Shown: piece after piece, positions 5,210 to 22,522 of the stretch | Position numbering within the stretch: position 1 is the first letter of the stretch | How the letters are laid out: each line of letters starts with the position of its first letter | Assembly: GCA_019120315.1 (NCBI GenBank) | Contig: DWVJ01000034.1 | Location: 121,455-185,454 of the forward strand | DNA from: Candidatus Ruminococcus avistercoris | Lineage (GTDB): Bacteria; Bacillota; Clostridia; Lachnospirales; Lachnospiraceae | DNA length: 64,000 nt | Direction of reading: 5' to 3' | Made by a program: the position numbers and the translations under genes | The notes under the pieces: generated by a model | Told to the model about the DNA's origin: nothing | What the model saw: the letters and a program-made list of their open reading frames with translations, nothing else | The model's database searches: none

Positions 5210-6444
5210 AAAATAACGATTGGTATGATCTGGGAGAACAGATCAAAGATATGGTGCAGTCGGCAGTCGACTCTCAGGATTTTCGAAAACTGAATCAGAC
5301 GGTTTCGGGCGTCATCAACCAGGCGGTCAGTTCTGCCGCCGACAGCGTGAAAAAAGGGATGGAGAAGGCGGAAGAAGCTTTCGAAACCCGCAGCGCACAG
5401 TATTATGAAAAATATCCCAATAAAGAAATCAAGGGCGACTTTAAAAAGGCCAATTACAGCAGTACGCTGCAGAGAAAGAGGGGATATGACACGACACGTT
5501 TCGCTTCAAGATCCGGCGGCGCCGGGATCGTGATGGCGGTGCTGGGATTTGTACTTGGCGGCGTCTTTGGCATCACGGCGCTGGCCATGGGGATGATCGG
5601 CCTTCTGACTTTGGCCGGGCCGCTGCTGGCCACGACTGTCTTTCTGGGAGCTTTGTTTCTGGCAGGCATGATCGTGGGCGGAAAGGGCGTTTCCCTCTGG
5701 AGCCGGGCAAAAAGGTTTAAACGGTATGTGAAAAAGCTGGATGGCAGGGAATTCTGCCAGGTCAGTGAACTTGCCCCTCTGGCGGGGAAATCTCCCGCCG
5801 CTACGGCAAAGGATTTGAAAATCATGATTAAAAAGGGCATGTTTCTCCAGGGCCATCTGGACGAGCAGGGCTCCTGCCTGATGGTGACGGAAAATGCCTG
5901 GGAGCAGTATCAGGCAGCCTTGCGGGCAAAAAGAGAGCGGGAGGCCAAAGCCACAGAGTGGGAGCGGCGGATGAATGATCCCGGCCGCAGTGAAGAATGT
6001 AAAGCTATACTGCGGGAAGGCCAGGAATATATACGGCGGATCCACAGAGCCAACGATGATATTCCCGATCCTGTGATGTCGGAAAAACTCTCCCGCCTGG
6101 AAGGAATCATGATCCGGATTTTCCAACAGGTGGAAAAAGATCCGGATGTGGCCGGGGAACTGCACAAATTTATGAATTATTATCTGCCCACCACCACCAA
6201 GCTGGTGGACGCCTACCAGGAACTTTATGACCAGCCGGCAGCGGGAGAAAACATGGCAGGGACGAAAAAGGAGATCGAGGATACGCTGGACACCATCAAC
6301 TTTGCCTTTGAAAAGCTGCTGGATCGTTTTTTCCAGGACACAGCCTGGGATATTTCCACGGATATTACGGTGATGAAAACCATGCTGGCCCAGGAGGGAC
6401 TGATGGACGACAGCCTGAAAAAATCCACATCCAAGAAAGGATAG
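5206..6444 (+). CDS. XpaC-like (5-bromo-4-chloroindolyl phosphate hydrolysis) family membrane protein
   Basis: two TM segments followed by KRYVKKLDGREFCQVSELAPLAGKSPAATAKDLKIMIKKGMFLQGHLDEQG; paired with TelA-like gene. Confidence 0.75.
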   Translation: MKNNDWYDLGEQIKDMVQSAVDSQDFRKLNQTVSGVINQAVSSAADSVKKGMEKAEEAFETRSAQYYEKYPNKEIKGDFKKANYSSTLQRKRGYDTTRFASRSGGAGIVMAVLGFVLGGVFGITALAMGMIGLLTLAGPLLATTVFLGALFLAGMIVGGKGVSLWSRAKRFKRYVKKLDGREFCQVSELAPLAGKSPAATAKDLKIMIKKGMFLQGHLDEQGSCLMVTENAWEQYQAALRAKREREAKATEWERRMNDPGRSEECKAILREGQEYIRRIHRANDDIPDPVMSEKLSRLEGIMIRIFQQVEKDPDVAGELHKFMNYYLPTTTKLVDAYQELYDQPAAGENMAGTKKEIEDTLDTINFAFEKLLDRFFQDTAWDISTDITVMKTMLAQEGLMDDSLKKSTSKKG

Positions 6445-6450
6445 AAAACT

Positions 6451-7596
6451 ATGAGTGAAGAAATGAAAAAAACAGCGGTTACACCCAGTCTGACTTTTGG
6501 AGTCATGGAAGAATCCGATCTTCTCCCTTCGGCGCAGGAGGAGAGTCCAAAGCCGGAACCGATGGAGGAGGAAGCAACCCTTACGGAAGAAGAAAAGAAA
6601 ATGGTGGAAGAGTTTGTCGGGCAGATTGACCTTGGAAATTCCGGGGCGATCCTGCAGTATGGCGCTGCCACTCAGAAAAAGATGGCGGATTTTTCAGCCG
6701 ATACGCTGGAGAATGTCCGCACCAAAGATCTGGGAGAGGTGGGAGATCTGCTCACGGAAGTGGTGACGGAACTGAAAAATTTCGATGTGGATGAAGAAGA
6801 AAAGGGTATCCTGGGATTTTTCAAAAAAACATCCAATAAGCTAAACGCCATGAAGACCAGATATGAGAAGGCGCAGGTCAATGTGGATAAGATCTGCAGC
6901 GTGCTAGAGCAGCATCAGATTCAGCTGATGAAAGATATCGCCATGCTGGACAAGATGTATGAACTCAACCTTGCCTATTATAAAGAACTGACCATGTATA
7001 TTCTGGCCGGAAAGAAAAAGCTAAAAAAGACCAGGGAACAGGAACTGCCGGCGCTGGTGGAAAAAGCCAGAAAAAGCGGGTTTCCTGAAGACGCCCAGGC
7101 GGCAAAAGATCTGGAGAACCTGTGTGAACGGTTCGAGAAAAAGATCCACGATCTGGAACTGACCCGGATGATTTCCGTTCAGACGGCGCCCCAGCTGCGT
7201 CTCGTCCAGAGCAGCGACAACGTGATGGTGGAAAAAATCCAGTCCACCATCGTCAATACCATCCCTCTGTGGAAAAGTCAGATGGTGATCGCCCTGGGGG
7301 TGGCCCATTCCACGCAGGCGGCAAAAGCCCAGCAGCAGGTGACGGACATGACCAATGAACTGCTGAAGAAAAACGCGGCCAGCTTAAAGACCGCTACGGT
7401 GGAGAGCGCGAAAGCGGCAGAGCGGGGAATTGTGGACATGGAAACATTAAAAGCGACCAACGAATCTCTGATCACAACATTGGATGAGGTGATGAAAATC
7501 CAGACGGAGGGACGGGAGAAACGCCAGGCTGCCGAGACAGAGCTGCGTGCCATGGAGGAACAGCTGAAAGAAAAACTTCTGGAAATTAGAAGATAA
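6451..7596 (+). CDS. toxic anion resistance protein (TelA family)
   Basis: TelA-like coiled-coil sequence: GILGFFKKTSNKLNAMKTRYEKAQVNVDKI... APQLRLVQSSDNVMVEKIQSTIVNTIPLWKSQMVIAL. Confidence 0.88.
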   Translation: MSEEMKKTAVTPSLTFGVMEESDLLPSAQEESPKPEPMEEEATLTEEEKKMVEEFVGQIDLGNSGAILQYGAATQKKMADFSADTLENVRTKDLGEVGDLLTEVVTELKNFDVDEEEKGILGFFKKTSNKLNAMKTRYEKAQVNVDKICSVLEQHQIQLMKDIAMLDKMYELNLAYYKELTMYILAGKKKLKKTREQELPALVEKARKSGFPEDAQAAKDLENLCERFEKKIHDLELTRMISVQTAPQLRLVQSSDNVMVEKIQSTIVNTIPLWKSQMVIALGVAHSTQAAKAQQQVTDMTNELLKKNAASLKTATVESAKAAERGIVDMETLKATNESLITTLDEVMKIQTEGREKRQAAETELRAMEEQLKEKLLEIRR

Positions 7597-7608
7597 GAGG
7601 TAAGACAG

Positions 7609-8667
7609 ATGGACAGACGAAAAACAAAAATCATACAGATCGGGAACCGTTTCATCGGCGGCGGCAATACCATTTTGATCCAGTCCATGACCAATACGAA
7701 GACGGAGGATGTGAAAAGTACGGTAGATCAGATTCAGGCGCTGACGGCCGCCGGCTGTGAGATCATCCGCTGCGCTGTCCCGACCATGGAGGCGGCCAGA
7801 GCGATCGGGAAGATCAAAAAGGAGATTTCCATTCCTCTGGTAGCAGATATTCATTTTGATTATAAGCTGGCCATTGCCGCCATTGAGAACGGAGCCGACA
7901 AAATCCGGATCAACCCGGGAAACATCGGCGGAAAGGAGAAAATAAAAGCGGTGGTGGACGCGGCCAGGGAACGGGGGATTCCCATCCGCGTGGGAGTCAA
8001 CAGCGGTTCCCTGGAAAAAGAACTGGTGGAGAAATACCACGGCGTGACGGCGGAAGGTCTGGTGGAAAGTGCGCTGGATAAAGTACATATCATTGAAGAA
8101 CTGGGATATGACAATCTGGTTATCAGTATCAAGTCTTCCGACGTGATGATGTGCGCCAGAGCCCATGAGATGATTTCGCGCCGCACTTCTTATCCCCTTC
8201 ACGTGGGAATCACGGAGGCGGGCACGCTGTATTCCGGGAATATCAAGTCGGCTGTGGGCCTGGCAGTGATCCTCTATCAGGGTATCGGCGATACGATCCG
8301 GGTATCTCTTACCGGTGATCCGCTGGAGGAAATCAAATCGGCCAAATGTATTTTAAAAACACTGGGTCTGCGAAAAGGCGGCGTGGAAGTGGTGTCCTGT
8401 CCCACCTGCGGCCGCACGCAGATCGATCTCATCGGCCTGGCTAATCAGGTGGAGGATATGGTACAGGATATTCCTCTGGACATCAAAGTGGCCGTTATGG
8501 GATGCGTGGTCAACGGACCGGGAGAGGCAAAAGAAGCGGATATCGGAATCGCCGGGGGAAAAGGAGAAGGCTTGCTGATCAAAAAGGGGGAGATTATCCG
8601 AAAAGTTCCGGAAGACAAATTGTTATCCGCTTTGCGCCAGGAACTGATAAACTGGAAGGATGCATGA
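7609..8667 (+). CDS. ispG: flavodoxin-dependent (E)-4-hydroxy-3-methylbut-2-enyl-diphosphate synthase
   Basis: PLVADIHFDYKLAIAAIENGADKIRINPGNIG; SCPTCGRTQIDL; CVVNGPGEAKEADIG. Confidence 0.96.
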   Translation: MDRRKTKIIQIGNRFIGGGNTILIQSMTNTKTEDVKSTVDQIQALTAAGCEIIRCAVPTMEAARAIGKIKKEISIPLVADIHFDYKLAIAAIENGADKIRINPGNIGGKEKIKAVVDAARERGIPIRVGVNSGSLEKELVEKYHGVTAEGLVESALDKVHIIEELGYDNLVISIKSSDVMMCARAHEMISRRTSYPLHVGITEAGTLYSGNIKSAVGLAVILYQGIGDTIRVSLTGDPLEEIKSAKCILKTLGLRKGGVEVVSCPTCGRTQIDLIGLANQVEDMVQDIPLDIKVAVMGCVVNGPGEAKEADIGIAGGKGEGLLIKKGEIIRKVPEDKLLSALRQELINWKDA

Positions 8668-11600
8668 TGGAGAAAAAGTTTTTTGACGTATTTCCCAAGC
8701 TGCTGATTGACGGAGAGCTGAAAGATTATGTGGAAGAAGCCAAAGTGACGCGGGTGACTTCCAATCCTTCGAAGACCCGCCTGCGGGTTTATCTCAACAG
8801 CCGTCAGTGGATTCATAAAAAGAATATCTATGCGTTGGAACGTTCGATCCGGGAACAGTTTTTCCCGGGTCTTCCCATGGAAATCAAAATTATCGAAGAT
8901 TTCCAGCTGTCCCGCCAGTATACGCCGGAAAATTTCTGGGAGGTTTATCGGGACAGTCTGCTGCTGGAATTAAAGGAATACAGCGCGGTGCTCTATAATC
9001 TGCTGATCCAGGGAAAACTGGAGTTTGAAGGGCAGGAGTCTTTGAGGATCACGCTGCCGGACACGGTGATTTCCCGGGAGCGGGGGGAAGAGCTGGAGCG
9101 GATTCTGGACAAGGTATTTTGCGAACGGTGCCACTTTGCCCTGCAGATTTCTGTGGAATATGTACAGGCAAAGGAAAGCCGCGCCAGGATCAACAGCGAA
9201 CAAAAAATTCAGGAGGAGGCCCGCCACCTTCAGGAGACGGCCGATGCTGCCAGAGAACAGGCGGCCATGGAAGAGGTCAAAGGTTCCACGAAGGAGACGA
9301 AGGAAAAACAAGCCCCCGGGAAAACCCGTGAGAACGGGAAAAAACAGCAGACACAAAATAAATCCTTCCGCGGACGGCAGTCCCGTCCGGGTATCCGCCG
9401 CAGCGCCAATCCTGATGTGATCTATGGAAGAGATTTTGAGGAAGACGCTGCCGTCACCATTGACAGCATTGCCGGAGAAATGGGAGATGTGGTGATCCGG
9501 GGAAAGATCCTGTCGGTGGATTCCCGGGAAATCCGCAATGAAAAGACCATTCTCATGTTCAACGTCACAGACTTTACCGACACCATCACAGTGAAAATGT
9601 TTCTCCCAAACGCTCAGGTGGCGGAAGCGGCGGAACAGATCAAAAAAGGCGCTTTTGTAAAAATCAAAGGCGTCACCATCGTGGATAAATTTGACCATGA
9701 ACTGACCATCGGTTCCGTCATCGGCATCAAAAAAATACCGGATTTTACCACCAGCCGGGTGGATACCAGCCCGGTAAAAAGAGTGGAACTGCACTGTCAT
9801 ACGAAAATGAGCGATATGGACGGGGTGACCGATGCGGCCGCACTGGTAAAAAGAGCCTACTCCTGGGGGCATCCGGCCATCGCCATCACCGACCACGGGG
9901 TGGTACAGTCATTCCCGGAGGCCAACCATGCACTGGAGGATATCGACCGGGCCTACCGGGATCAATATGCAAAAGACCATCCCGATGTGAGCAAAGAAGA
10001 ATTGAAAAAGATTTCCAGTCCCTTTAAGGTGATCTACGGTATGGAGGCCTATCTGGTGGATGATCTGAAGGGAATCGTGGAAAACGGCAAAGGGCAGAGT
10101 CTGGACGGTTCCTTTGTGGTATTTGACATTGAAACTACGGGATTTAGTCCCGCAGCCAACAAAATCATCGAGATCGGCGCCGTGCGGGTGGAGGAAGGAA
10201 AGATCACTGACAGGTTTTCTTCTTTTGTCAATCCGCAGGTTCCCATCTCCTTTAAAATAGAAAACCTCACCGGGATCAATGACTCCATGGTGGTCAATGA
10301 ACGCACCATCGATCAGGTGCTGCCGGAATTTCTGGAGTTTTCCAGAGGAGCAGTTATGGTGGCTCACAACGCGTCCTTTGATATGAGCTTTATCGAAAAG
10401 AACTGTCGGGATATTGGATATGAAACGGATTTCACTTCCGTGGATACGGTGGGAATGGCCCGCTTCCTGCTGCCAGGCCTGAACCGGTTCAAGCTGGATA
10501 CGGTGGCCAAGGCGCTGGGTGTGCCTCTTTTGAATCATCACCGTGCTGTGGACGATGCGGCCTGCACGGCGGAGATTTTCGTACGCTTTCTCAAGATGCT
10601 TAAGGAACGGGAGATCGACAATCTGGACAGTCTGAATGCGCAGGGGCAGGTTTCTGTCCATACCTTAAAAAAGCTGCCCACCTATCATGCCATCATACTG
10701 GCCAGAAACGATATCGGCCGCGTCAATCTGTACCGGTTGGTGTCCCGTTCTCACCTGGAGTTCTATAACCGCCGGCCCCGGCTGCCCAAAAGCGTGTTTC
10801 TGCAGCACCGGGAAGGGTTGATCATCGGTTCTGCCTGCGAGGCGGGGGAACTGTATCAGGCCCTTTTGCGGGGAGCGCCGGAGCAGGAGATCGCTCGGCT
10901 GGTGCAGTTTTACGATTATCTGGAGATTCAGCCCCTAGGAAATAACGCCTTTATGCTCCGGGAGGATCGGGATGATGTGAAGAGCGAGGAAGATTTAAAA
11001 GAACTGAACAGAAAAATTGTGCGGCTGGGCGAACAGTTTCAAAAACCAGTGGCGGCTACCTGCGACGTCCATTTCATGGATCCCCAGGATGAAGTTTACC
11101 GCCGCATTATCATGACGGGAAAGGGATTTGCCGACGCGGATCAGCAGGCGCCGCTGTTTCTTAGGACCACGGAGGAGATGCTGGGAGAGTTCGAATATCT
11201 GGGAGCAAAAAAAGCGGAAGAAGTGGTGATCGAAAATCCGGCGAAGATCGCGGCCATGTGCGAGAAGATTTCGCCTATCCGCAAAGGAAAATTTCCGCCG
11301 GTGATCGAGGATTCCGATAAAACGCTGCGGGAAATCTGCTACAACCGGGCTCATGAGATTTACGGAGAAACGCTGCCAAAAATCGTTCAGGAGCGTCTGG
11401 AACGGGAATTGAACTCCATTATCTCCAACGGCTACGCGGTGATGTATATCATCGCCCAGAAATTGGTGTGGAAGTCCAATGAGGACGGCTATCTGGTGGG
11501 CTCCAGGGGATCGGTAGGTTCTTCCTTCGTGGCCACCATGGCCGGTATCACGGAGGTGAATCCCCTGTCTCCTCATTATTATTGCGAGAAATGTCATTAC

Positions 11601-13190
11601 TATGATTTCGACTCCGACGAGGTGAAAGCCTACGCCGGAAAAGCCGGCTGTGACATGCCGGATAAAAACTGTCCCGTCTGCGGCACGCCCCTGAAAAAAG
11701 AAGGGTTTGACATTCCTTTCGAAACGTTCCTGGGCTTTAAAGGCAACAAGGAGCCGGATATCGACCTGAACTTTTCCGGCGATTACCAGGGCAAGGCGCA
11801 TAAATATACGGAGGTTATCTTTGGCGCAGGCCAGACCTTCCGTGCCGGGACCATCGGTACGCTGGCGGCCAAGACGGCTTTTGGCTATGTGAAAAAATAT
11901 TATGAGGAACACGGTATTCATAAAAGAAACTGTGAGGTGGACCGGATCGTGGAAGGATGTACCGGCATCCGCCGTACCACGGGACAGCACCCCGGCGGTA
12001 TCATCGTTCTGCCCATCGGGGAAGATATCAACTCCTTCACGCCGGTGCAGCATCCGGCCAACGATGTGAATACGGATATCATCACCACCCATTTTGATTA
12101 CCATTCCATCGATGAGAATCTGCTGAAGCTGGATATACTGGGGCACGATGATCCCACCATGATTCGTATGCTGGAGGATCTGACAGGATTGGATGCCAAG
12201 ACCATCCCCCTGGACAATAAAGAGGTGATGAGTCTGTTCAAGAGCACAAAGGAGCTGGGTATCACGCCGGAGGATATCGGCGGCTGCCCCCTGGGCTGCC
12301 TGGGTATCCCGGAGTTTGGAACCGATTTCGTTATCCAGATGCTGCAGGATACCAAACCTCAGACTTTTTCCGACCTGGTAAGGATCTCCGGACTGTCCCA
12401 CGGAACCGATGTGTGGCTGGGCAATGCTCAGACGCTGATCCAGGAGGGCAAGGCCACCATTTCCACCGCCATCTGTACCCGTGACGATATCATGACGTAC
12501 CTGATCCAGAAAGGGGTGGAGAGTGAACAGGCTTTCACCATCATGGAGAGCGTCCGCAAAGGCAAAGGACTGAAACCGGAATGGGAAGAAGAGATGAAGG
12601 CCCATGATGTGCCGGACTGGTATATCTGGTCCTGCAAGAAGATCAAGTATATGTTCCCCAAGGCTCATGCGGCGGCCTATGTCATGATGGCTTACCGGAT
12701 CGCCTACTATAAAATTTTTTACCCGCTGGCCTACTATGCGGCCTACTTTAGTATCCGCGCCTCTGCCTTTTCCTATGAACTGATGTGTATGGGGAGGGAG
12801 CGGCTGGAATATCACATGGAAGAATACCGGAAACGTTCTGACAGCTTGACCAACAAGGAGCAGGATACGGTGAAGGATATGAAGATTGTCCAGGAAATGT
12901 ACGCCAGAGGATTTGAATTTACACCGGTGGATCTCTACCGGGCGCAGGCGCACCGGTTCCAGATCGTGGACGGAAAACTGATGCCGGCCTTGGATACCAT
13001 AGAAGGGCTGGGCGACAAGGCGGCGGACGCCGTGGTGCTGGCGGCCAGGGACGGAAAGTTTCTGTCCAAAGATGATCTGCGCAATCGCACCAAGATCAGC
13101 AAAACGGTCATCGATCTGATGGATGAGCTGAATCTTCTGGGAGATATCCCCGATTCCAATCAGATTTCCATCTTTGACTTTAAAGGATAA
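8664..13190 (+). CDS. polC: DNA polymerase III alpha subunit, PolC type
   Basis: PHP domain (VELHCHTKMSDMDGVTDAA) with inserted DnaQ-like exonuclease (VVFDIETTGFSP) and PolC catalytic core (GYLVGSRGSVGSSFVATM, EPDIDLNFSGDYQ); start set at ATG 8664 rather than upstream in the ispG-overlapping extension. Confidence 0.96.
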   Translation: MMEKKFFDVFPKLLIDGELKDYVEEAKVTRVTSNPSKTRLRVYLNSRQWIHKKNIYALERSIREQFFPGLPMEIKIIEDFQLSRQYTPENFWEVYRDSLLLELKEYSAVLYNLLIQGKLEFEGQESLRITLPDTVISRERGEELERILDKVFCERCHFALQISVEYVQAKESRARINSEQKIQEEARHLQETADAAREQAAMEEVKGSTKETKEKQAPGKTRENGKKQQTQNKSFRGRQSRPGIRRSANPDVIYGRDFEEDAAVTIDSIAGEMGDVVIRGKILSVDSREIRNEKTILMFNVTDFTDTITVKMFLPNAQVAEAAEQIKKGAFVKIKGVTIVDKFDHELTIGSVIGIKKIPDFTTSRVDTSPVKRVELHCHTKMSDMDGVTDAAALVKRAYSWGHPAIAITDHGVVQSFPEANHALEDIDRAYRDQYAKDHPDVSKEELKKISSPFKVIYGMEAYLVDDLKGIVENGKGQSLDGSFVVFDIETTGFSPAANKIIEIGAVRVEEGKITDRFSSFVNPQVPISFKIENLTGINDSMVVNERTIDQVLPEFLEFSRGAVMVAHNASFDMSFIEKNCRDIGYETDFTSVDTVGMARFLLPGLNRFKLDTVAKALGVPLLNHHRAVDDAACTAEIFVRFLKMLKEREIDNLDSLNAQGQVSVHTLKKLPTYHAIILARNDIGRVNLYRLVSRSHLEFYNRRPRLPKSVFLQHREGLIIGSACEAGELYQALLRGAPEQEIARLVQFYDYLEIQPLGNNAFMLREDRDDVKSEEDLKELNRKIVRLGEQFQKPVAATCDVHFMDPQDEVYRRIIMTGKGFADADQQAPLFLRTTEEMLGEFEYLGAKKAEEVVIENPAKIAAMCEKISPIRKGKFPPVIEDSDKTLREICYNRAHEIYGETLPKIVQERLERELNSIISNGYAVMYIIAQKLVWKSNEDGYLVGSRGSVGSSFVATMAGITEVNPLSPHYYCEKCHYYDFDSDEVKAYAGKAGCDMPDKNCPVCGTPLKKEGFDIPFETFLGFKGNKEPDIDLNFSGDYQGKAHKYTEVIFGAGQTFRAGTIGTLAAKTAFGYVKKYYEEHGIHKRNCEVDRIVEGCTGIRRTTGQHPGGIIVLPIGEDINSFTPVQHPANDVNTDIITTHFDYHSIDENLLKLDILGHDDPTMIRMLEDLTGLDAKTIPLDNKEVMSLFKSTKELGITPEDIGGCPLGCLGIPEFGTDFVIQMLQDTKPQTFSDLVRISGLSHGTDVWLGNAQTLIQEGKATISTAICTRDDIMTYLIQKGVESEQAFTIMESVRKGKGLKPEWEEEMKAHDVPDWYIWSCKKIKYMFPKAHAAAYVMMAYRIAYYKIFYPLAYYAAYFSIRASAFSYELMCMGRERLEYHMEEYRKRSDSLTNKEQDTVKDMKIVQEMYARGFEFTPVDLYRAQAHRFQIVDGKLMPALDTIEGLGDKAADAVVLAARDGKFLSKDDLRNRTKISKTVIDLMDELNLLGDIPDSNQISIFDFKG

Positions 13191-13227
13191 GAAAAAGGTC
13201 TGCCAAAAGCAGACCTTTTTCTTATCC
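13185..13227. terminator. bidirectional terminator shared by convergent polC and cobD-like genes
   Basis: perfect 19-bp inverted repeat GGATAAGAAAAAGGTCTGC caaaa GCAGACCTTTTTCTTATCC. Confidence 0.85.
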
Positions 13228-14319
13228 GAGCAGTTCTTTGAAGGCTTCCAGCAGCCGGTCGTTCTGCTCCGGCTTCATCATGCAGAAGCGGACGTATTTA
13301 TCATCCAGGAAGGGGAAGGTGGAGCAGTCGCGGATCATCATGCATTGACGGATGCAGTGATCAAAGAGCTGATCCGAGGTGACGTCTTCCTTCAAAATCC
13401 GCATGAGGATGAAATTGGCAAAAGGACGGTAGACCTTCACCGTATCCCAGGAAGACAGTTCTTCGAATATGCGTGCTCTCTCCCCGCTGATCAGATGGGC
13501 GGTCTGGGCAATATATTCCTGATCCTGAAACATCAGACGGCCGGCGATCTCCGCCAGAGAATTGATGGTCCAGGGGTTTTTGCGGGTATTGATGGCTTTG
13601 CACACATCCCGGTTGCCCGTGACGGCGTAGCCCAGCCGCAGCCCCGGAGCGGCAAAAAATTTAGAGGTGCCCCGCAGGATAATCAGGTTGTTGTAGTTAT
13701 TGGTGAGCGGGATGGAGGTTACCCGTTCTTCCTTGGGGGCAAATTCCGCATAAGTTTCATCCACCATCACGAAAATGCCATACTGCAGACAGGTATCCAG
13801 GATACGGCGCATCTGCGTGCGGTTGATGGCGGTGGATGTGGGGTTGTTGGGGTTGCAAAGGATCAGAAGATCCAGTGAGTCGTTGAGGTGACTGCAGAAA
13901 TCTTCCGTGTTCAGGGAAAATCCGTCTTTTTCTTTCAGCGGATAGTAATTGACAGTGCCGCCCTCCAGGGAAACCTCCCGCTCGTATTCTGAATAGGTGG
14001 GGCCCAGGATCATTGCCTTTTTGGGACGCTGGGTCTGAATGAATAAAGAGATCAGCTCGGTGGAACCGTTTCCCACGATGATGTTCTCGATCTGGCTGTC
14101 GGTGTAGCGGGCGATACAGGCGCGCAGCGCTTTATATTCCCGGTCCGGGTAGGTGGTGATGGCATCCAGATTTTCCGCCAGTGTGTTTCGCAGGGCGAAG
14201 GAGATCCCCAGGGGATTGACGTTGGCGCTGAAGCTTACGATGTCTTCCTTGTTAATATGATAAATGGTTTCTATCTTTTCCAGGTCGCTGCCATGGAAAT
14301 GATCTTTATGCTGTAACAT
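13222..14319 (-). CDS. aminotransferase class I/II, threonine-phosphate decarboxylase (CobD)-like
   Basis: DIVSFSANVNPLG, IIVGNGSTELI, LLILCNPNNPTS, GTSKFFAAPGLRLGYAV; likely start at second Met (MLQHKDHFHG). Confidence 0.8.
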   Translation of the reverse strand: MLQHKDHFHGSDLEKIETIYHINKEDIVSFSANVNPLGISFALRNTLAENLDAITTYPDREYKALRACIARYTDSQIENIIVGNGSTELISLFIQTQRPKKAMILGPTYSEYEREVSLEGGTVNYYPLKEKDGFSLNTEDFCSHLNDSLDLLILCNPNNPTSTAINRTQMRRILDTCLQYGIFVMVDETYAEFAPKEERVTSIPLTNNYNNLIILRGTSKFFAAPGLRLGYAVTGNRDVCKAINTRKNPWTINSLAEIAGRLMFQDQEYIAQTAHLISGERARIFEELSSWDTVKVYRPFANFILMRILKEDVTSDQLFDHCIRQCMMIRDCSTFPFLDDKYVRFCMMKPEQNDRLLEAFKELLG

Positions 14320-14429
14320 ATCTGTCCTTTCCGCAGCCGTGCAGGTTGCATCCAAAGTTTTTGTAGTGTATAATTCATTATAGCGTTTGAAAAAGAATAG
14401 TCAATAGCAGAAAATACAGGTAGAAACGA

Positions 14430-17400
14430 ATGAAAAAAAGAGTAGAGCAACTGATTAACGGAACGTTTGAATATACCCATCCGGGATTTGATATATCAAA
14501 GACATCCATCGACCTGGTACTGGCAGAAGGAGAACAGCACAGAGACGAGATCGTCTTTGGGGCGCAGGACGGCAGTTCCATCCGCGGGATGCTGGTTTCC
14601 AATGATCGCCGGATCCTTCTGTCGGAGGACCGGTTTCAGGGGAAAATCATCCACGTAATCTATGAGATAGACACGAGAGGATTGCGTCCCGGGGACAGAG
14701 GTCATGGAAGTATCGTCATCATGAGCGATATCGGACAGGCGGTGATACCGGTTCATTATGAGGTCGGAAAAGGGCAGGTCAATTCCACCAGAGGCACGCT
14801 GAAGAATCTGGATGATTTTACAGCTCTGGCCAGGGAGGATTACCGGGAGGCTTTCCGCATTTTCACCGGAAAGGATTTTTTGAATTTCCCGGAAGAAGAA
14901 AAAGAAAACTGCCGGTCACTGTATAAAGGCATGGCTCACAACCCGGTAACTTACCAGCACATGGAAGAATTCCTCATCGGCGCCGGGAGGAAAGAGCCGG
15001 TGCGGCTTTCTCTGGACAAGGATTATAAAGAATCGCTGAAACTGGATGGTTCTATGAAGGATACCCTCTATATATACCGCAGTACCTGGGGATATCTGCG
15101 GGCCGAGGTGGAGACGGAGGGGGATTTCCTGGAGGTGGATAAGAAGATCATCACTTCCGAGGATTTCATCGGCAGCGTATTCGGCCTGGAGTATATCATA
15201 CTGCGGGACCGCCTTGGCAAAGGGAAACGGTATGGCAAGATCCGTATCCATACTGTTTACGGACAGCTGCAGTTTGAGATCGTGGCTTCCGCGGCGAATG
15301 AATATGAAATCAGCATGCACCGTTTCGAAAACCGGATTCGCAGGGATCTGACCAGAAGCTGGCTGGACCGCAGCATGGAGAAGACAGACAGCCGTCAGTT
15401 CCAGGAGCAAACGGATCAGATATTAAAGGAACTGAAAAACTCAGGCAGCTATAACGCCATGATGCAGCTGTATGAAGCGTGGGTCTGCCTGGAAACCGGC
15501 GAGCGGGCCAAGGCGGAGGAGCTGATCGCACAGCTGGCGGACAGAACCTTTCAGGCGTCGGAGAGTCAGGAGGAAGCCGCCTATCTGTATCTGGCCAGAC
15601 AGACGGGACTGCGTCAGCAGGATACGATGGAATACAGGGAACGGATCCGCTCTCTGTACCGGAGAAATCCCAGAAGTCTGGTGATCCTCTATGTGCTTCT
15701 TCGCGATGAGGAAATCAGCCATTCCCCGGTGAAGCAGATGAATCTTCTGGAACAGCAGTTTGAAATGGGAGTCGCCAGTCCCGTTCTCTATCTTATGGCC
15801 TGCCGGGTACTGCAGGAGGATGTCGGTCAGTTTCGTAAGCTGACGCCCTTTATGGTTCAGGTGCTGGCCTTCGCCGGCCGCCATCAGATGATGACGAAAG
15901 AACTGGGAATGCGCATCGCCCATCTGGCCTCCCATGAAAAGACCTTCCGTCCCGGTGTGTACCGGATTCTCTGTGAAGCCTACAAGGTGTGTCCGGGGAA
16001 AGATGTGGTGGAGGCCGTCTGCAGGCTGGTGATGCTGGGACAGCCGGGGAAGAAAGAATATTTTAAATGGTACGCGCGGGCGGTGGATCTGGATATCCGC
16101 ATCACCCGTCTGTACGAATTTTACATAGAAACCATGAGCCGTCATTATCAGGAAGCGCTTCCCAGGGCGGTGCGTCTGTATTTTTCCTATCAGAATACCC
16201 TGAGCAGTGAGCGCAAAGCCTTTATCTATGCCCGTGTCATCCGGGACAAGGCGCAGGATATGCAGACCTACCTGGCTTACCGGGAAGCCATGGAGACGTT
16301 TGCCCATAAAAGCCTGGCAGAAAAGCGGATCAACGAAGATTATGCCGTTCTCTACCAGGAGTTTATCACCGAAGTGAGGGATCAGGATCAGGCCAGGGAC
16401 TTCGCGTTTGTGATGTTTACCCACCGTCTGTACAGCGACGATCCCAAAGTGCGCAATGTGGTGGTGTGTCATGGAGCGCTGAAGGAGGAGCAGAGCTATC
16501 CCTGCCGGGACGGAGTGGCATATATTAATCTTTACGCTTCGGATGCGCAGATCTTCTTTGAAGACGCCAAGCATCGCCGTTATGTGGCCACCGTGGATTA
16601 TAATCTGCAGAAACTGATGGAGGAAAAAGAGCCGGCACGTCAGTGTATGGCTTACAATATTGCCGATCCCGGTCTTTTGCTGTATATCTGCGGAAGCGAC
16701 CCTATGAAGACGGAAGTGAGCGTAAGAAATATGGGCAGCTTCCAGCTGGTAGCCGACTCCGAAGCCTTTGAGGAGGATTACCGGCGTAAAGTACGCAGGA
16801 AGCTTCTGGATTATTACGATAAAAATGCAGGGGATGATACCCTCAATGAATACCTTGGACGACTGGATTATGAGGAATTTTACAAGGTGGATTACCTCCT
16901 GCTGCAGGATATTTTGATCCGCCACGGGTTTGTCCGGGAGTCTTTTGATCTGATCCAGAAATACGGTTATGAAGGAATCGATATGACGGCGCTGTTCAAA
17001 CTTTGCCGCCGTCTGATTTTGGACAGTCAGTTTACGGAAAACGAAGAACTGCTTTATCTGGCTTATTACGTGATGGAGCAGGGAAAATACGACGAGGTTC
17101 TTTTAGGATATTTAAGAGACAGCTATATGGGACCGGTGGAAAATATGGTCCTGATCTGGGAACGGTTAAAGGGTTTTCAGATGGACGGATACACCTTGGA
17201 GGAGGAAATTTTGCTCCTGGCCATGTATGCCAGGGTAAATTTCCCCAAATTTGCCAAAGTGCTGGAAAGTTATGTGAAAAACAGAGGCAAGGAAGCGGTG
17301 ATCGCCGCCGCCTTTACCTTCCTCTCTTACGGATACTTTCTGGAAGATATCCGCATCGACATGTTTGTGTTTAAGGGGCTGGAAAGCTTTTATGAAGATG

Positions 17401-17969
17401 GAAGCGATCTGGATCTGATCTGCTGGCTGGCGCTGCTGAAGCGTTACCGTTTTTGCAAAAAGCTTAATACGTATCAGAAGGAAAATGTAAAAGGGATTTT
17501 AAACCTCTGCCGCAGGGAGAATCTGCGATTTGCTTTTTTCAAAGAGCTGCCCCAGGAACTGACACGCGGGATGCAGCTGGAGGACAAGATTTTTGTGGAG
17601 AAACGGTTTGCTCCGGACGCCCGGGTGACGCTGCATTTTGCCATTACAGGAGAGGGCGCGGAGCCGGTGTATAAAAGCGAACCGATGAAGAAGGGATTCC
17701 ACGGCGTGTTTGTCAGAGAATTCCTGCTGTTCTACGGAGAACGGCTCACTTACTATCTGACGGTGGAGCAGAAGGAAAAAAGCTTTCGCACCGAGGAAGA
17801 GGAGGTTTGGATGGAATCGGTTTCCGATTCCGGAACTACCCGCTACGACATGATCAATCAGATGCTGGCATACCGAAAGATGGGAAACGACCGGGAGTGC
17901 CAAAATATCATGAAAAAATACCGCCGCATGGAACAGGTGACGGAGCGGCTGTTTAAAATGATACCGTGA
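14430..17969 (+). CDS. DUF5717-like large protein: N-terminal beta-sandwich-like repeats, central alpha-solenoid, C-terminal beta domain
   Basis: 1179-aa ORF; two similar N-terminal segments ending HGSIVIMSDIGQAVIPVHYEVG and YGKIRIHTVYGQLQFEIVASA, then helical repeats. Confidence 0.75.
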   Translation: MKKRVEQLINGTFEYTHPGFDISKTSIDLVLAEGEQHRDEIVFGAQDGSSIRGMLVSNDRRILLSEDRFQGKIIHVIYEIDTRGLRPGDRGHGSIVIMSDIGQAVIPVHYEVGKGQVNSTRGTLKNLDDFTALAREDYREAFRIFTGKDFLNFPEEEKENCRSLYKGMAHNPVTYQHMEEFLIGAGRKEPVRLSLDKDYKESLKLDGSMKDTLYIYRSTWGYLRAEVETEGDFLEVDKKIITSEDFIGSVFGLEYIILRDRLGKGKRYGKIRIHTVYGQLQFEIVASAANEYEISMHRFENRIRRDLTRSWLDRSMEKTDSRQFQEQTDQILKELKNSGSYNAMMQLYEAWVCLETGERAKAEELIAQLADRTFQASESQEEAAYLYLARQTGLRQQDTMEYRERIRSLYRRNPRSLVILYVLLRDEEISHSPVKQMNLLEQQFEMGVASPVLYLMACRVLQEDVGQFRKLTPFMVQVLAFAGRHQMMTKELGMRIAHLASHEKTFRPGVYRILCEAYKVCPGKDVVEAVCRLVMLGQPGKKEYFKWYARAVDLDIRITRLYEFYIETMSRHYQEALPRAVRLYFSYQNTLSSERKAFIYARVIRDKAQDMQTYLAYREAMETFAHKSLAEKRINEDYAVLYQEFITEVRDQDQARDFAFVMFTHRLYSDDPKVRNVVVCHGALKEEQSYPCRDGVAYINLYASDAQIFFEDAKHRRYVATVDYNLQKLMEEKEPARQCMAYNIADPGLLLYICGSDPMKTEVSVRNMGSFQLVADSEAFEEDYRRKVRRKLLDYYDKNAGDDTLNEYLGRLDYEEFYKVDYLLLQDILIRHGFVRESFDLIQKYGYEGIDMTALFKLCRRLILDSQFTENEELLYLAYYVMEQGKYDEVLLGYLRDSYMGPVENMVLIWERLKGFQMDGYTLEEEILLLAMYARVNFPKFAKVLESYVKNRGKEAVIAAAFTFLSYGYFLEDIRIDMFVFKGLESFYEDGSDLDLICWLALLKRYRFCKKLNTYQKENVKGILNLCRRENLRFAFFKELPQELTRGMQLEDKIFVEKRFAPDARVTLHFAITGEGAEPVYKSEPMKKGFHGVFVREFLLFYGERLTYYLTVEQKEKSFRTEEEEVWMESVSDSGTTRYDMINQMLAYRKMGNDRECQNIMKKYRRMEQVTERLFKMIP

Positions 17970-17994
17970 GTCCGGATCGATGGGAGGCTAATAA

Positions 17995-19242
17995 ATGAAT
18001 GAAGTCAGAAATATAATCGTAGGGTTCGAGATGGGAGAAAAGACTTCCCAGATCTGCTACTTTGACAGGACGGAGGGAGAGCCGGTTTCTCTTTCTGTGA
18101 TTGCCGGACAGAGTCAGTATGCGTTCCCCACCTGCATCAGCAAAAAGCCGGGGGAGGCGGTCTATCATTACGGAGTGGAAGCGGAGTATTTTGCCGCTCA
18201 TCAGGATGAAATTCTCATCGACCGGCTGTTGGAGCGCTGTCTTTTGGAGGAACCGGTGCAGGTGGAGGACCAGATGGTCAAACCTTCCTCTCTGGCGGCG
18301 ATTTTTCTGGGACAGGCATTGGGAATGCTGGGGGCAAATAATCTGTCCAAAAATATTTCCGGTATCATGGTGACCGTTCCCCGTCTGACCAGACCGCTGG
18401 TGGAAAATCTGCGGGAGGCCTTTCAGATTCTGCAGTTTCCGCCAGGAAGATGCTTTCTGCAGACTTATGATGAAAGTTTTTACTACTATACTATTTCGCA
18501 GAAACCAGAATTTTGGAGCCGGAAAGTGGGACTTTTTACCTTCGAAGGGGACGAGGTGGCGTTTCGCTGCCTGGATGTCAACCGTCAGGTCAGACCGGCG
18601 GAGGCTTTTGTAAAAGCCGGAAAACGGGCCGGGCTTTCCCTGGACAAAGAGCAAAGAGACGTGGATTTCTGCAAAATGATTCAGGAATCTTTTGGCAGCG
18701 AGATGTATTCCGGCGTTTTCCTGGTGGGCAGCGGATTCGACCGGGAGTGGGCGGTACGTTCCGTTCCCATGCTGTGCAAAAACCATCGCCATGTATTTTA
18801 CGGCAATAATCTGTACTGCAAAGGAGCCTGTTACGGAGCCAGAGAAAAGGTGGAAGGCCGTCAGGTCAAGGATCTGGTTTACCGGGGGGAGGATATCGTG
18901 ACCGGCATGCTGGGCATGGAAATGCTGGTGTCCGGCGTTCATACTTATTATCCGCTGGTGGAGCCGGGAATCCACTGGTATGAGGCAAAAAAGGAGTTTG
19001 AGATTCTGCTGGAGGATACGGCAGATCTGGTGTTCCTTGCCGGAGAACCAAAATCCGCCCAGCTGCAGCGATACAGCATGTCCCTTCCGGGACTGCCCCA
19101 CAGACCGCCCAAGGCAACCCGTCTTCGGATCAGCCTGGAGTTTGAATCCTTAAGCCGTATCCATATCCGGGTGACGGACCTGGGACTGGGAGAGTTGTTT
19201 CCCGCAAGCGGCCTGGAATGGAACGAGACGCTGGTACAGTAA
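17995..19242 (+). CDS. DUF5716-like protein with Hsp70/actin-like ATPase fold signatures
   Basis: IIVGFEMGEKTSQICYFD, ISGIMVTVPRLTRPLVENLREAFQIL, GVFLVGSGFDREWAVRSVPMLCKNHRHVFYGNNLYCKGACYGA parallel Hsp70 phosphate-1, VPA and adenosine motifs. Confidence 0.7.
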   Translation: MNEVRNIIVGFEMGEKTSQICYFDRTEGEPVSLSVIAGQSQYAFPTCISKKPGEAVYHYGVEAEYFAAHQDEILIDRLLERCLLEEPVQVEDQMVKPSSLAAIFLGQALGMLGANNLSKNISGIMVTVPRLTRPLVENLREAFQILQFPPGRCFLQTYDESFYYYTISQKPEFWSRKVGLFTFEGDEVAFRCLDVNRQVRPAEAFVKAGKRAGLSLDKEQRDVDFCKMIQESFGSEMYSGVFLVGSGFDREWAVRSVPMLCKNHRHVFYGNNLYCKGACYGAREKVEGRQVKDLVYRGEDIVTGMLGMEMLVSGVHTYYPLVEPGIHWYEAKKEFEILLEDTADLVFLAGEPKSAQLQRYSMSLPGLPHRPPKATRLRISLEFESLSRIHIRVTDLGLGELFPASGLEWNETLVQ

Positions 19243-19254
19243 AGGAGGAACGGG

Positions 19255-20034
19255 ATGATCGGTTATCGCTTATGTCAGACGAAAAAAGCAAAAAATCCTT
19301 ATTTCATCGAAAATATCAGCACCAACATCTACACGATGGAAGAACTGTGCTTCTATATGAGTCAGAATCTCTATCTGCTGGATGAGACCATTCTCAATGG
19401 GGGGCTGATCCTTTGGCTGAAAGAGGAACTGGGGCTGACGGCCCTGGCCAGGAGGCTGGAGAAGCTGCTGGAGGACAAAGCATCCATGGCAGAGCTGATT
19501 CTGCCTGTCATGAAAGAAATTCAGTATCTGAACCAGGCGGAGCAAAAAGCGCTGCAGCAGAATCTGAAGCAGATGGAAGAGCAGCCTGCGCTGATGCGAA
19601 GAAAAAAGAAAGGCGATTATCTGGTGGGATACCGCAAATACGGCAACGCCCTGCGGGTGTACGGCGATGCGCTCAAAGACGCCCGGGAGGATCCCCAGGC
19701 GGAACCGGCTTTTTGCGGCAGCGTGCTGCACAATATGGGATGCGCCTATGCCCGTCTCTTTCAGATGGAGGAGGCGCTGTCCTGTTTCAAACAGGCCAAT
19801 GAACTGCTGCACAGCAGAACATCTCTGAAAAGTTATCTTTCGGCGATCTATCTGCTGAAATCCAGGGAAGAGTTTCAGGAGAAGGCCGGGCAGGAGAAGG
19901 CGGACGATACGCTGATCTGTGAGATCGAAGGGGAAGTACTCCGGGAAGAAAAAGATGGGGCGGCGGACGGGGAAGTCACCGATGAGATGCTGACGTCCAT
20001 GACGGAGGAATACCATAAAAATACAGGATGGTAA
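19255..20034 (+). CDS. TPR-containing protein, third gene of the DUF5717/DUF5716 cluster
   Basis: GSVLHNMGCAYARLFQMEEALSCFKQANELLHS is TPR-like; short intergenic spacing to previous gene. Confidence 0.65.
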   Translation: MIGYRLCQTKKAKNPYFIENISTNIYTMEELCFYMSQNLYLLDETILNGGLILWLKEELGLTALARRLEKLLEDKASMAELILPVMKEIQYLNQAEQKALQQNLKQMEEQPALMRRKKKGDYLVGYRKYGNALRVYGDALKDAREDPQAEPAFCGSVLHNMGCAYARLFQMEEALSCFKQANELLHSRTSLKSYLSAIYLLKSREEFQEKAGQEKADDTLICEIEGEVLREEKDGAADGEVTDEMLTSMTEEYHKNTGW

Positions 20035-20134: not shown

Positions 20135-21010
20135 GTGAAAAAGAAATTAATCAGTATGATGTTGACGGCTGTGATGGCGTTTTCTTTGCTGGCCGGCTGC
20201 GGAGCAAAGGAAGAAGCCGAGCCGGAAGCACAGGAGAACACCGCCCAGGCCGACAAAGAGCAGGCGGAGGAACCGGCCGAACAGGAGGAATCTTCTGAGG
20301 AGAAAACTACCTTTACCGTCGGGTTCGACGCGGAGTATCCGCCTTACGGATACATGGACGAAAACGGCGAGTATACCGGATTTGACTTGGAACTGGCCCA
20401 GGCGGTCTGCGATCTGGAAGGATGGGAACTGGTGAAAACTCCCATTTCATGGGATTCCAAGGATATGGAACTGGAATCCGGCACCATCGACTGTATCTGG
20501 AACGGATTTACCATGAACGGCCGTGAGGACGACTATACCTGGTCCGATCCCTATGTGGACAACAGCCAGGTGATGGTGGTCGCTGAAAACTCCGGTATCG
20601 AAACCTTTGACGATCTGGCAGGCAAGGTGGTAGGCGTACAGGCGGCGTCTGCGGCGCTGCAGCTTCTTCAGGATGAGGAAGGCCAGAAAGCGCTGGCGGA
20701 TACCTTCGGTGCGCTGCAGGAGTTTGCCGATTACAACAGCGCCTTCGTGGAACTGCAGGCAGGATCGGTACAGGCTGTGGCCATGGATATCGGCGTGGCT
20801 CAGTATCAGATCAAGACCAGAGGAGAAGGCTTTAAGATCATGGATGAAAAGCTGAATTCCGAGAAATATGCCATCGGATTCAAGCTGGGCAATGAAGAAC
20901 TGCGGGATAAGGTGAACGCTGATCTGCAGACTCTTCTGGCGGATGGAACCTTCGATGAACTGGCAGAAAAATATGAACTGTCGGATATGGTTTGTCTGGA
21001 AGCAAAATAA
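20135..21010 (+). CDS. amino acid ABC transporter substrate-binding lipoprotein (family 3)
   Basis: lipobox SLLAGCG; FTVGFDAEYPPYGYMDENGEYTGFDLELAQAVC. Confidence 0.93.
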   Translation: MKKKLISMMLTAVMAFSLLAGCGAKEEAEPEAQENTAQADKEQAEEPAEQEESSEEKTTFTVGFDAEYPPYGYMDENGEYTGFDLELAQAVCDLEGWELVKTPISWDSKDMELESGTIDCIWNGFTMNGREDDYTWSDPYVDNSQVMVVAENSGIETFDDLAGKVVGVQAASAALQLLQDEEGQKALADTFGALQEFADYNSAFVELQAGSVQAVAMDIGVAQYQIKTRGEGFKIMDEKLNSEKYAIGFKLGNEELRDKVNADLQTLLADGTFDELAEKYELSDMVCLEAK

Positions 21011-21103
21011 GAGGCGGTGCATAACCCCCCGGATTTGCCGCAAAAAGCGGCAGGTTGCGGGGGGTATTCTCGCCGTATGGGAAAAGAAAGGAATACAAAG
21101 GAT

Positions 21104-21754
21104 ATGGAATTTTCAGTTATGCTGGGACAGCTGGCCGAAGGTATGGTGAAGTCCATCGGGATCTTCGCGCTGACGCTGCTTTTTTCCCTCCCCCTGGGTC
21201 TTTTAGTCTCCTTTGGGCGCATGGCCAAAAACAGGGTGATCAGCACGGTTTTCAAAATTTATATTTCCATCATGAGAGGGACGCCGCTGATGCTGCAGCT
21301 GCTGGTGGTATTCTACGGGCCTTTTTATCTGTTCGGGGCCAATATCGGCGGCATGTACCGCTTTATTGCCATTATTCTGGGCTTCTCATTGAATTATGCG
21401 GCTTATTTTGCCGAGATTTACCGTTCGGGAATCGAATCCATGCCCCGCGGGCAGTACGAGGCGGCCAAAGTGTTGGGTTACAACGGGCGGCAGACCTTCC
21501 TGAAGATTATCCTGCCGCAGGTGATAAAGAGAATCCTGCCGGCGGTGACCAATGAGGTGATCACCCTGGTCAAGGATACGTCCCTGGCCTTTGCCCTGGC
21601 ATATATGGAGATGTTTACCGTCGCCAAACAGATCGCCGCGGCCAACACTACCTTCATGCCCTTTGTCGTGGCGGGCGTATTCTACTACGTATTCAACCTG
21701 CTGGTGGCCGTGGTGATGGAAGCCATCGAGAAAAAGCTGAATTACTATCATTAG
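21104..21754 (+). CDS. amino acid ABC transporter permease
   Basis: MRGTPLMLQLLVVFYG ... EIYRSGIESMPRGQYEAAKVLGY; start set at ATG 21104 with upstream GAAAGG. Confidence 0.92.
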   Translation: MEFSVMLGQLAEGMVKSIGIFALTLLFSLPLGLLVSFGRMAKNRVISTVFKIYISIMRGTPLMLQLLVVFYGPFYLFGANIGGMYRFIAIILGFSLNYAAYFAEIYRSGIESMPRGQYEAAKVLGYNGRQTFLKIILPQVIKRILPAVTNEVITLVKDTSLAFALAYMEMFTVAKQIAAANTTFMPFVVAGVFYYVFNLLVAVVMEAIEKKLNYYH

Positions 21755-21763
21755 GAGGAAGCC

Positions 21764-22522
21764 ATGAATCTGTTGGAAATGAATCATATCAGGAAAACGT
21801 TTGACGATCTGGAAGTGATAAAAGACATTTCTCTGTCCGTGAAGGAAGGCGAGATCCTTTCCATCATCGGCCCGTCCGGATCGGGGAAATCCACGCTGCT
21901 GCGCTGCGCCACCATGCTGGAGGAGATCGACGGCGGCGAGATTCTCTATATGGGAGAGCGGGCGGCCTGGATGGAAGGAAAGAAGGCCTGCCATCCGGGA
22001 AAAGCCCAGATGAAACGGCTGCAGGAGTATTTCGGGCTGGTGTTTCAAAGCTTCAATCTTTTTCCCCATTACAGCGTGATGAAAAATCTCACCGATGCAC
22101 CCATCAATATCCAGAAGAGAAATAAAGAAGAGGTGTACCGGGAGGCCAGGGAGCTGCTGGCCAAAATGGGACTGGAGGACAAGGAAGACGCCTATCCCTG
22201 TCAGCTGTCCGGAGGCCAGTGCCAGCGTGTGGCCATCGCCAGGGCCCTGGCGCTCAACCCCAAGATCATGTTTTTCGACGAGCCCACCTCCGCCCTGGAC
22301 CCGGAGCTGACCGGCGAGGTGCTCAAAGTGATCCGCTCCCTTGCGGATCTGCACATCACCATGGTGATCGTCACCCATGAGATGTCCTTTGCCAGGGAGA
22401 TCTCCGACCGGGTGATCTTCATGGACAAAGGCGTGGTGGCGCTGGAAGGAACGCCGGAAGAGGTCTTTACCTCCAGTCATAACCGGATGCAGGAGTTTCT
22501 GGGGAAATTCCGGCAGCATTAG
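21764..22522 (+). CDS. amino acid ABC transporter ATP-binding protein
   Basis: Walker [10 protein letters not shown], signature LSGGQCQR, Walker [16 protein letters not shown]. Confidence 0.94.

Follow-up and report, generated by a model that had tools for sequence, protein, structure and literature searches.

What might an Hsp70 that seems to have lost the means of hydrolysing ATP still do for a cell? The question is raised by three genes in a 64,000-nucleotide stretch of the genome of Candidatus Ruminococcus avistercoris (Lachnospiraceae; contig DWVJ01000034.1, positions 121,455 to 185,454), which we refer to as the window. An original prediction, made from the sequence alone, described a degenerate Hsp70-like ATPase working with two repeat scaffolds. 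The three open reading frames were found at the positions it gave. They share the + strand, and 25 bases separate the first from the second and 12 the second from the third:

14430..17969, + strand: DUF5717 protein, 1179 aa, scaffold (Pfam; AlphaFold, predicted local distance difference test score (pLDDT) 86.4, predicted template modelling score (pTM) 0.56)
17995..19242, + strand: DUF5716 pseudo-Hsp70, 415 aa (Pfam; AlphaFold; PDB fold match)
19255..20034, + strand: tetratricopeptide repeat (TPR) protein, 259 aa, with a weak TPR at about residues 128-185 (Pfam below cut-off; alignment)

The names DUF5717 and DUF5716, given in the prediction, are right. The 1179-aa protein matches Pfam DUF5717_N (PF18984, E 4e-248, 826 bits) and DUF5717 (PF18983, E 4e-88, 296 bits), and the 415-aa protein matches DUF5716_C (PF18980, E 4e-93, 312 bits). 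The cut-offs are 25 bits each for PF18984 and PF18983 and 34.7 bits for PF18980, and the window proteins are full members of all three families. The TPR ascribed to the third protein is visible as a match, but a weak one that falls under the Pfam cut-off. Curated HSP70/DnaK family models give no match to the 415-aa protein, and DnaJ (the J domain) has no Pfam match in any of the three. The Pfam descriptions of DUF5717 and DUF5716 state no function, Hsp70 link or operon context. Among the open-access papers covered by our searches none contains the name DUF5717, DUF5716 occurs in one, on an unrelated subject, and we found no description of such an operon or protein.

The fold of the middle protein is that of an Hsp70. 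An AlphaFold model built from the window sequence and 31 relatives (pLDDT 91.2, pTM 0.87) returns DnaK as its first match in a Foldseek search of the PDB (4ani_C, E 9.9e-20), with 320 matches at E <= 0.001 that also include the yeast pseudo-Hsp70 Ssz1. The lack of a two-lobe actin/Hsp70 fold had been named in advance as grounds for abandoning the prediction, which withstands this check. MreB, FtsA and actin can be rejected as the best fold, the top 50 structural matches being nearly all Hsp70s. The DnaK alignments span both the nucleotide-binding domain and the beta part of the substrate-binding domain (SBD-beta), the two parts of the fold by which an Hsp70 is recognised, and the prediction, while right that the protein is Hsp70-like, had missed that its C-terminal third is an SBD-beta. 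The rigid-body root-mean-square deviations from Hsp70 structures are large and the template modelling scores (TM-scores) about 0.4-0.6, as expected for two domains set differently. Direct PDB sequence searches with DUF5716 and DUF5717 give weak matches only. By sequence, residues 290-399 of DUF5716 match the DnaK substrate-binding domain at E 0.69, a match later confirmed, and an SBD profile from an active relative, Hsp70-B (described below), picks up the DUF5716 genes in other genera. Nearly all members retain SBD-beta with the motif D-x-G-x-G at its end. The fold persists as the sequence drifts, the mean pairwise identity being 27-28% in both domains. The SBD-alpha lid of Hsp70s is lacking: about 122 residues follow the linker in DUF5716, against 260 in the DnaK of the same genome. 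The modelled structure thus gives good support to DUF5716 having the full Hsp70 plan of nucleotide-binding domain and SBD-beta in a lidless form. The relevant segments are as follows:

18022..18045, + strand: degenerate phosphate-1 loop GFEMGEKT, where DnaK has GIDLGTTN (alignments)
18529..18564, + strand: degenerate phosphate-2 loop GLFTFEGDEVAF, aligned under DnaK YDLGGGTFD (alignments)
18712..18834, + strand: retained adenosine-side region GVFLVGSGFD...KGACYGA (alignment)
18901..19239, + strand: SBD-beta domain, about residues 303-415, with no SBD-alpha lid after it (weak DnaK sequence match; Foldseek; Hsp70-B SBD profile; alignment)

All the Hsp70-like motifs quoted in the prediction are present in the protein, and the replacement of phosphate 2 by GLFTFEGDEVAF is genuine. 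The catalytic residues that mark an Hsp70 (K70, E171, D194, T199 and the GGG loop) are not preserved as a set. When 20 DUF5716 members were aligned with the DnaK of the same genome and scored in DnaK numbering, K70, E171, G198 and T199 were each found in 0/20 and D194 in 9/20, and the subdomain IIB stretch was deleted in 20/20. The description as a degenerate Hsp70 flanked by two co-conserved scaffolds, with no assigned function, stands, and the word ATPase is not supported: given the loss of K70, E171, G198 and T199 in every member, these alignments make ATP hydrolysis by DUF5716 unlikely. It is scarcely credible that the protein remains an ATPase by virtue of an unconventional site. The features from which this might be argued are D8, kept in 17/20 members, and one adenosine-loop glycine and the glycine of the GA pair, both in 20/20, within an adenosine-side region where G245, G277 and A278 are nearly or fully invariant; the four lost residues and the missing subdomain speak against it. 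We regard as well supported the conclusion that DUF5716 is a pseudoenzyme derived from Hsp70, in which both the lid and the catalytic residues are missing.

The origin of this pseudoenzyme is visible in other families of the same order, where DUF5716_C matches come in tandem pairs. There a 7-8 gene operon occupies the same place, in many cases beside the same divergent aminotransferase gene, and encodes in order a DUF5717 homologue (often split elsewhere into an Ig-like gene and a solenoid gene), a lidless Hsp70-A, a long coiled coil headed by a GrpE domain, a pseudo-Hsp70, a lidless Hsp70-B, an Hsp70-VWA and a TPR protein, sometimes with a membrane coiled-coil protein as the eighth. At the L068 locus, the one scanned gene by gene against Pfam, the products are:

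DUF5717 homologue, 1326 aa
Hsp70-A, 559 aa
GrpE-ended protein, 644 aa
pseudo-Hsp70, 523 aa
Hsp70-B, 551 aa
Hsp70-VWA, 692 aa
TPR protein, 387 aa

The large L068 protein matches DUF5717_N (1.6e-84) and DUF5717 (9.6e-28), and the pseudo-Hsp70 matches both DUF5716_C (1.5e-26) and HSP70 (1.4e-17), which ties the two families together. The L068 GrpE domain is over the Pfam cut-off (PF01025, E 3e-13, 50.2 bits); the L076 copy of the GrpE-headed protein has no Pfam match, and outside the order a phylum-wide profile search finds only GrpE-sized proteins, matched by the C-terminus of the profile. The seven L068 genes give no DnaJ match, and neither GAP1-N2 nor a GTPase is among them. Every Hsp70-A (18), Hsp70-B (19) and Hsp70-VWA (16) compared has the complete set of K70, E171, D194, T199 and GGG loop, whereas the pseudo-Hsp70s of these outgroup families have K70, G198 and T199 in 0/19 and E171 in 2/19. 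The operon Hsp70s are lidless: Hsp70-A and Hsp70-B have 130-155 residues past the linker, where DnaK has 260, and the SBD-beta of Hsp70-VWA is followed by the VWA domain. A query with the Hsp70-B SBD returns 80 named records, a set read in part for the full operon, including Defluviitalea phaphyphila, Petrocella and Vallitaleaceae. In the L066 locus of genome G549 (6208-9384) both Hsp70-VWA and TPR are encoded by two gene pieces, and the GrpE-like protein is only 279 aa long, which may reflect either errors in a metagenome-assembled genome (MAG) or a locus in decay. The window trio is thus a real unit but also the rump of a larger operon, and the first reading, in missing the three intact Hsp70s and the GrpE-like protein of the ancestral operon as well as the membrane protein that neighbours the trio in other genera, was incomplete.

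Two trees agree on how the locus has changed. The DUF5716 proteins form a single clade in the protein tree (100/97), with the pseudo-Hsp70 of G549, a genome that carries the full operon, as its sister (100/100); this clade is nested in the pseudo-Hsp70 clade, itself sister to Hsp70-B (100/100). Branches in this tree are long, and an approximately unbiased test rejects the outgroup pseudo-Hsp70s as an exclusive clade (p 3e-5). An rpoB tree, built independently, takes its root from three genomes of other orders of the class; in it the genomes with the reduced locus form one clade (100/100), sister to G549 (99/97), and the other full-operon lineages lie further out. A history of duplication and loss follows from this agreement: on the evidence of these sequence trees, DUF5716 is shown to descend from a pseudo-Hsp70 that is a duplicate of the active, lidless Hsp70-B. 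It is likewise well supported that the family lost three ATPases and the GrpE-like protein and kept the catalytically dead part. A search of 100 family genomes finds no Hsp70-B, the significant matches being only DUF5716 genes and one DnaK fragment. The loss of Hsp70-A, Hsp70-VWA and the GrpE-like gene rests on a narrower search, covering four family genomes for the last and 60 for Hsp70s in general, among which some genera have extra, unclassified Hsp70s. One family genome has an Hsp70 domain inside a 1328-aa open frame outside its DUF5716 locus (G049:C10:343332-344822). In the window's own genome the Hsp70 search returned DnaK and, besides it, a single weak and partial match; this draft assembly also gave no rpoB, so some absences may be assembly gaps. 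Further losses have occurred, as several members of the order lack the locus entirely.

Within the family the trio is close to universal. Of 150 Lachnospiraceae genomes, one per genus, 145 have DUF5716, nearly always in single copy. Three of the five others have DUF5717, at least two of them as fragments where contigs are short or broken; G029 and G091 have neither. DUF5717 occurs in 5/399 genomes of a phylum-wide sample, all within the family, and in 0/20 genomes of the order that lack DUF5716. One MAG of another family (G668:C40, family f146) carries a typical DUF5716 and DUF5717 that its family mates lack, probably through contamination or misbinning. Separation of the three genes in other genomes had also been set in advance as refuting the cluster; they adjoin in nearly every family locus read, with a few divergent or fused members recognised only by direct alignment. 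In 5/145 genera DUF5716 and the TPR protein are a single protein (open frames of about 690-727 aa, of one or two origins), which points to a physical complex. Taken with co-inheritance and fixed gene order, these natural fusions strongly indicate that DUF5717, DUF5716 and the TPR protein form one complex.

Upstream of the window trio (8502-14355) lie polC, encoding a 1562-aa DNA polymerase III, and a divergent class-I/II aminotransferase gene, the landmark common to many full-operon loci. Downstream (20135-22522) is an amino-acid type ABC transporter (solute-binding protein, permease and ATPase), ordinary genes that do not adjoin the trio in every locus. A promoter and terminator scan gave only about twice the shuffled expectation and was not used as evidence.

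The AlphaFold model of DUF5717, reliable in its local structure but not in its global arrangement, bears out the predicted architecture, with a pair of beta domains at the N-terminus, then a long helical solenoid, and beta structure at the C-terminus:

14484..14801, + strand: first beta-sandwich, residues 19-124, ASH/MSP-like (model secondary structure; matches to ciliary ASH-type folds at low TM-scores)
15006..15290, + strand: second beta-sandwich, residues 193-287 (model)
15300..17573, + strand: alpha-solenoid, residues 291-1048, with a beta insert (model; matches to the TPR solenoids of Ski3, Ctr9 and Naa15)
16419-16613, + strand: beta insert within the solenoid, about residues 664-728 (model)
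17589..17810, + strand: C-terminal beta domain, residues 1054-1127 (model)

In structural comparison the model comes closest to the ASH-type domains found in ciliary proteins and to TPR solenoids. Because the TM-scores are low, the modelled likeness is a resemblance of parts and not membership of those families.

A further component appears in many genera. A coiled-coil protein of about 390 aa is encoded in 64 family genomes, and in 63 of these its gene lies directly downstream of the TPR gene (for example L046:10521-11702 and L069:4692-5852, and equivalents). A central hydrophobic stretch in this protein reads, by eye, as two membrane helices, and no convincing Pfam family was found for it. 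The gene is present in five outgroup loci as well and is hence an old member of the locus. In three genera it carries in-frame stops (G082:C48:5169-6344, G127:C1:441305-442441 and G110:C18:443-1399), which looks like a further loss in progress. This protein, with its hydrophobic helix pair, the ASH-type and TPR scaffold matches of DUF5717, and a DUF5716 fold that persists while its sequence drifts could all be accommodated by an assembly that serves only as a structural scaffold for the envelope or cell body, in which the Hsp70 fold is an inherited interaction module without clients. We consider this distinctly improbable: the near-complete retention of SBD-beta and D-x-G-x-G suggests a domain in use.

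Among known systems the closest in manner of working is Ssz1 of the yeast ribosome-associated complex (RAC), a comparison of function and not of descent. Like DUF5716, Ssz1 is lidless with an SBD-beta and does not hydrolyse ATP, which it binds; it makes weak contact with nascent chains and is stably bound to a partner that is not an Hsp70 (PMC7083937), a logic similar to that proposed for DUF5716. Ssz1 differs in pairing with a J protein and the ribosome, whereas the probable partners of DUF5716 are DUF5717 and the TPR protein, without a J domain. The analogy raises the prospect of a RAC-like co-chaperone, in which the rump complex recruits and directs the housekeeping DnaK-GrpE in place of the lost dedicated Hsp70s and GrpE-like protein. 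A DnaK-type Hsp70 is indeed present in 60/60 family genomes, and in the window's genome it is the one clear Hsp70 besides DUF5716; Ssz1 partners an active Hsp70, Ssb (PMC7083937). We nevertheless think this unlikely, since the absence of a J domain from both the window trio and the L068 operon leaves no obvious stimulator of DnaK, and no DnaK-binding motif was found. With DnaK itself DUF5716 shares the nucleotide-binding domain and SBD-beta, and is homologous to it by way of the pseudo-Hsp70s of the sister families; it is without the catalytic residues, subdomain IIB and lid.

A similar kit of parts is found in the GAP1-N2 GTPase systems, which combine Hsp70, GrpE, a second, reduced Hsp70 and Ig/FNIII-type proteins fused to DnaJ or TPR, with VWA proteins in a related theme (PMC7159879). 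The trio might on this ground be a relic of a related conflict or defence system, but this is very improbable. GAP1-N2 systems have a GTPase, of which the L068 scan found none, and are patchy and accessory, whereas the trio is a near-universal, single-copy, vertically inherited core locus of one family; the pseudo-Hsp70 here also keeps its SBD, unlike its counterpart in those systems (PMC7159879). PADLOC gives only generic Hsp70-domain matches and one marginal match, to the TPR protein, and we rejected the defence reading.

On balance we lean to the view that the trio is a reduced descendant of a dedicated Hsp70 machine, now a nucleotide-independent holdase or scaffold that is possibly membrane-linked. 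We infer that the complex would work without an ATP cycle: DUF5717 would be the large scaffold, the TPR protein would dock on or near the lidless SBD-beta, and SBD-beta would weakly hold a peptide, from a client or a partner, in the manner of yeast Ssz1. The downstream membrane coiled-coil protein, where present, would tie the assembly to the membrane, and the whole would act as a passive holdase or assembly scaffold, perhaps passing clients to the cell's DnaK. Some observations weigh against this account. The pocket residues of the SBD can be read only from an alignment of very divergent proteins, so peptide binding is putative; DUF5716 may bind ATP without hydrolysing it; and the membrane coiled-coil gene is missing from the window's genome, so membrane linkage is not general.

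In a wider scenario, which we advance tentatively and would not yet call probable, a dedicated machine of several lidless Hsp70s, with a pseudo-Hsp70 on a DUF5717 scaffold, was stripped of all its ATPases and of its exchange factor in the family's ancestor, and its pseudo-Hsp70 core became a near-universal nucleotide-independent protein-handling complex, which in many genera is membrane-located. Homology, fold and ancestry are here supplied for two DUF families that nearly all members of a major family of gut bacteria possess. The order provides a natural experiment of a rare kind: a chaperone machine with its motors (Defluviitaleaceae, Vallitaleaceae) can be set against one without, and the role of a pseudo-Hsp70 on its own becomes directly testable in a machine that seems to be still working after losing all its motor parts.

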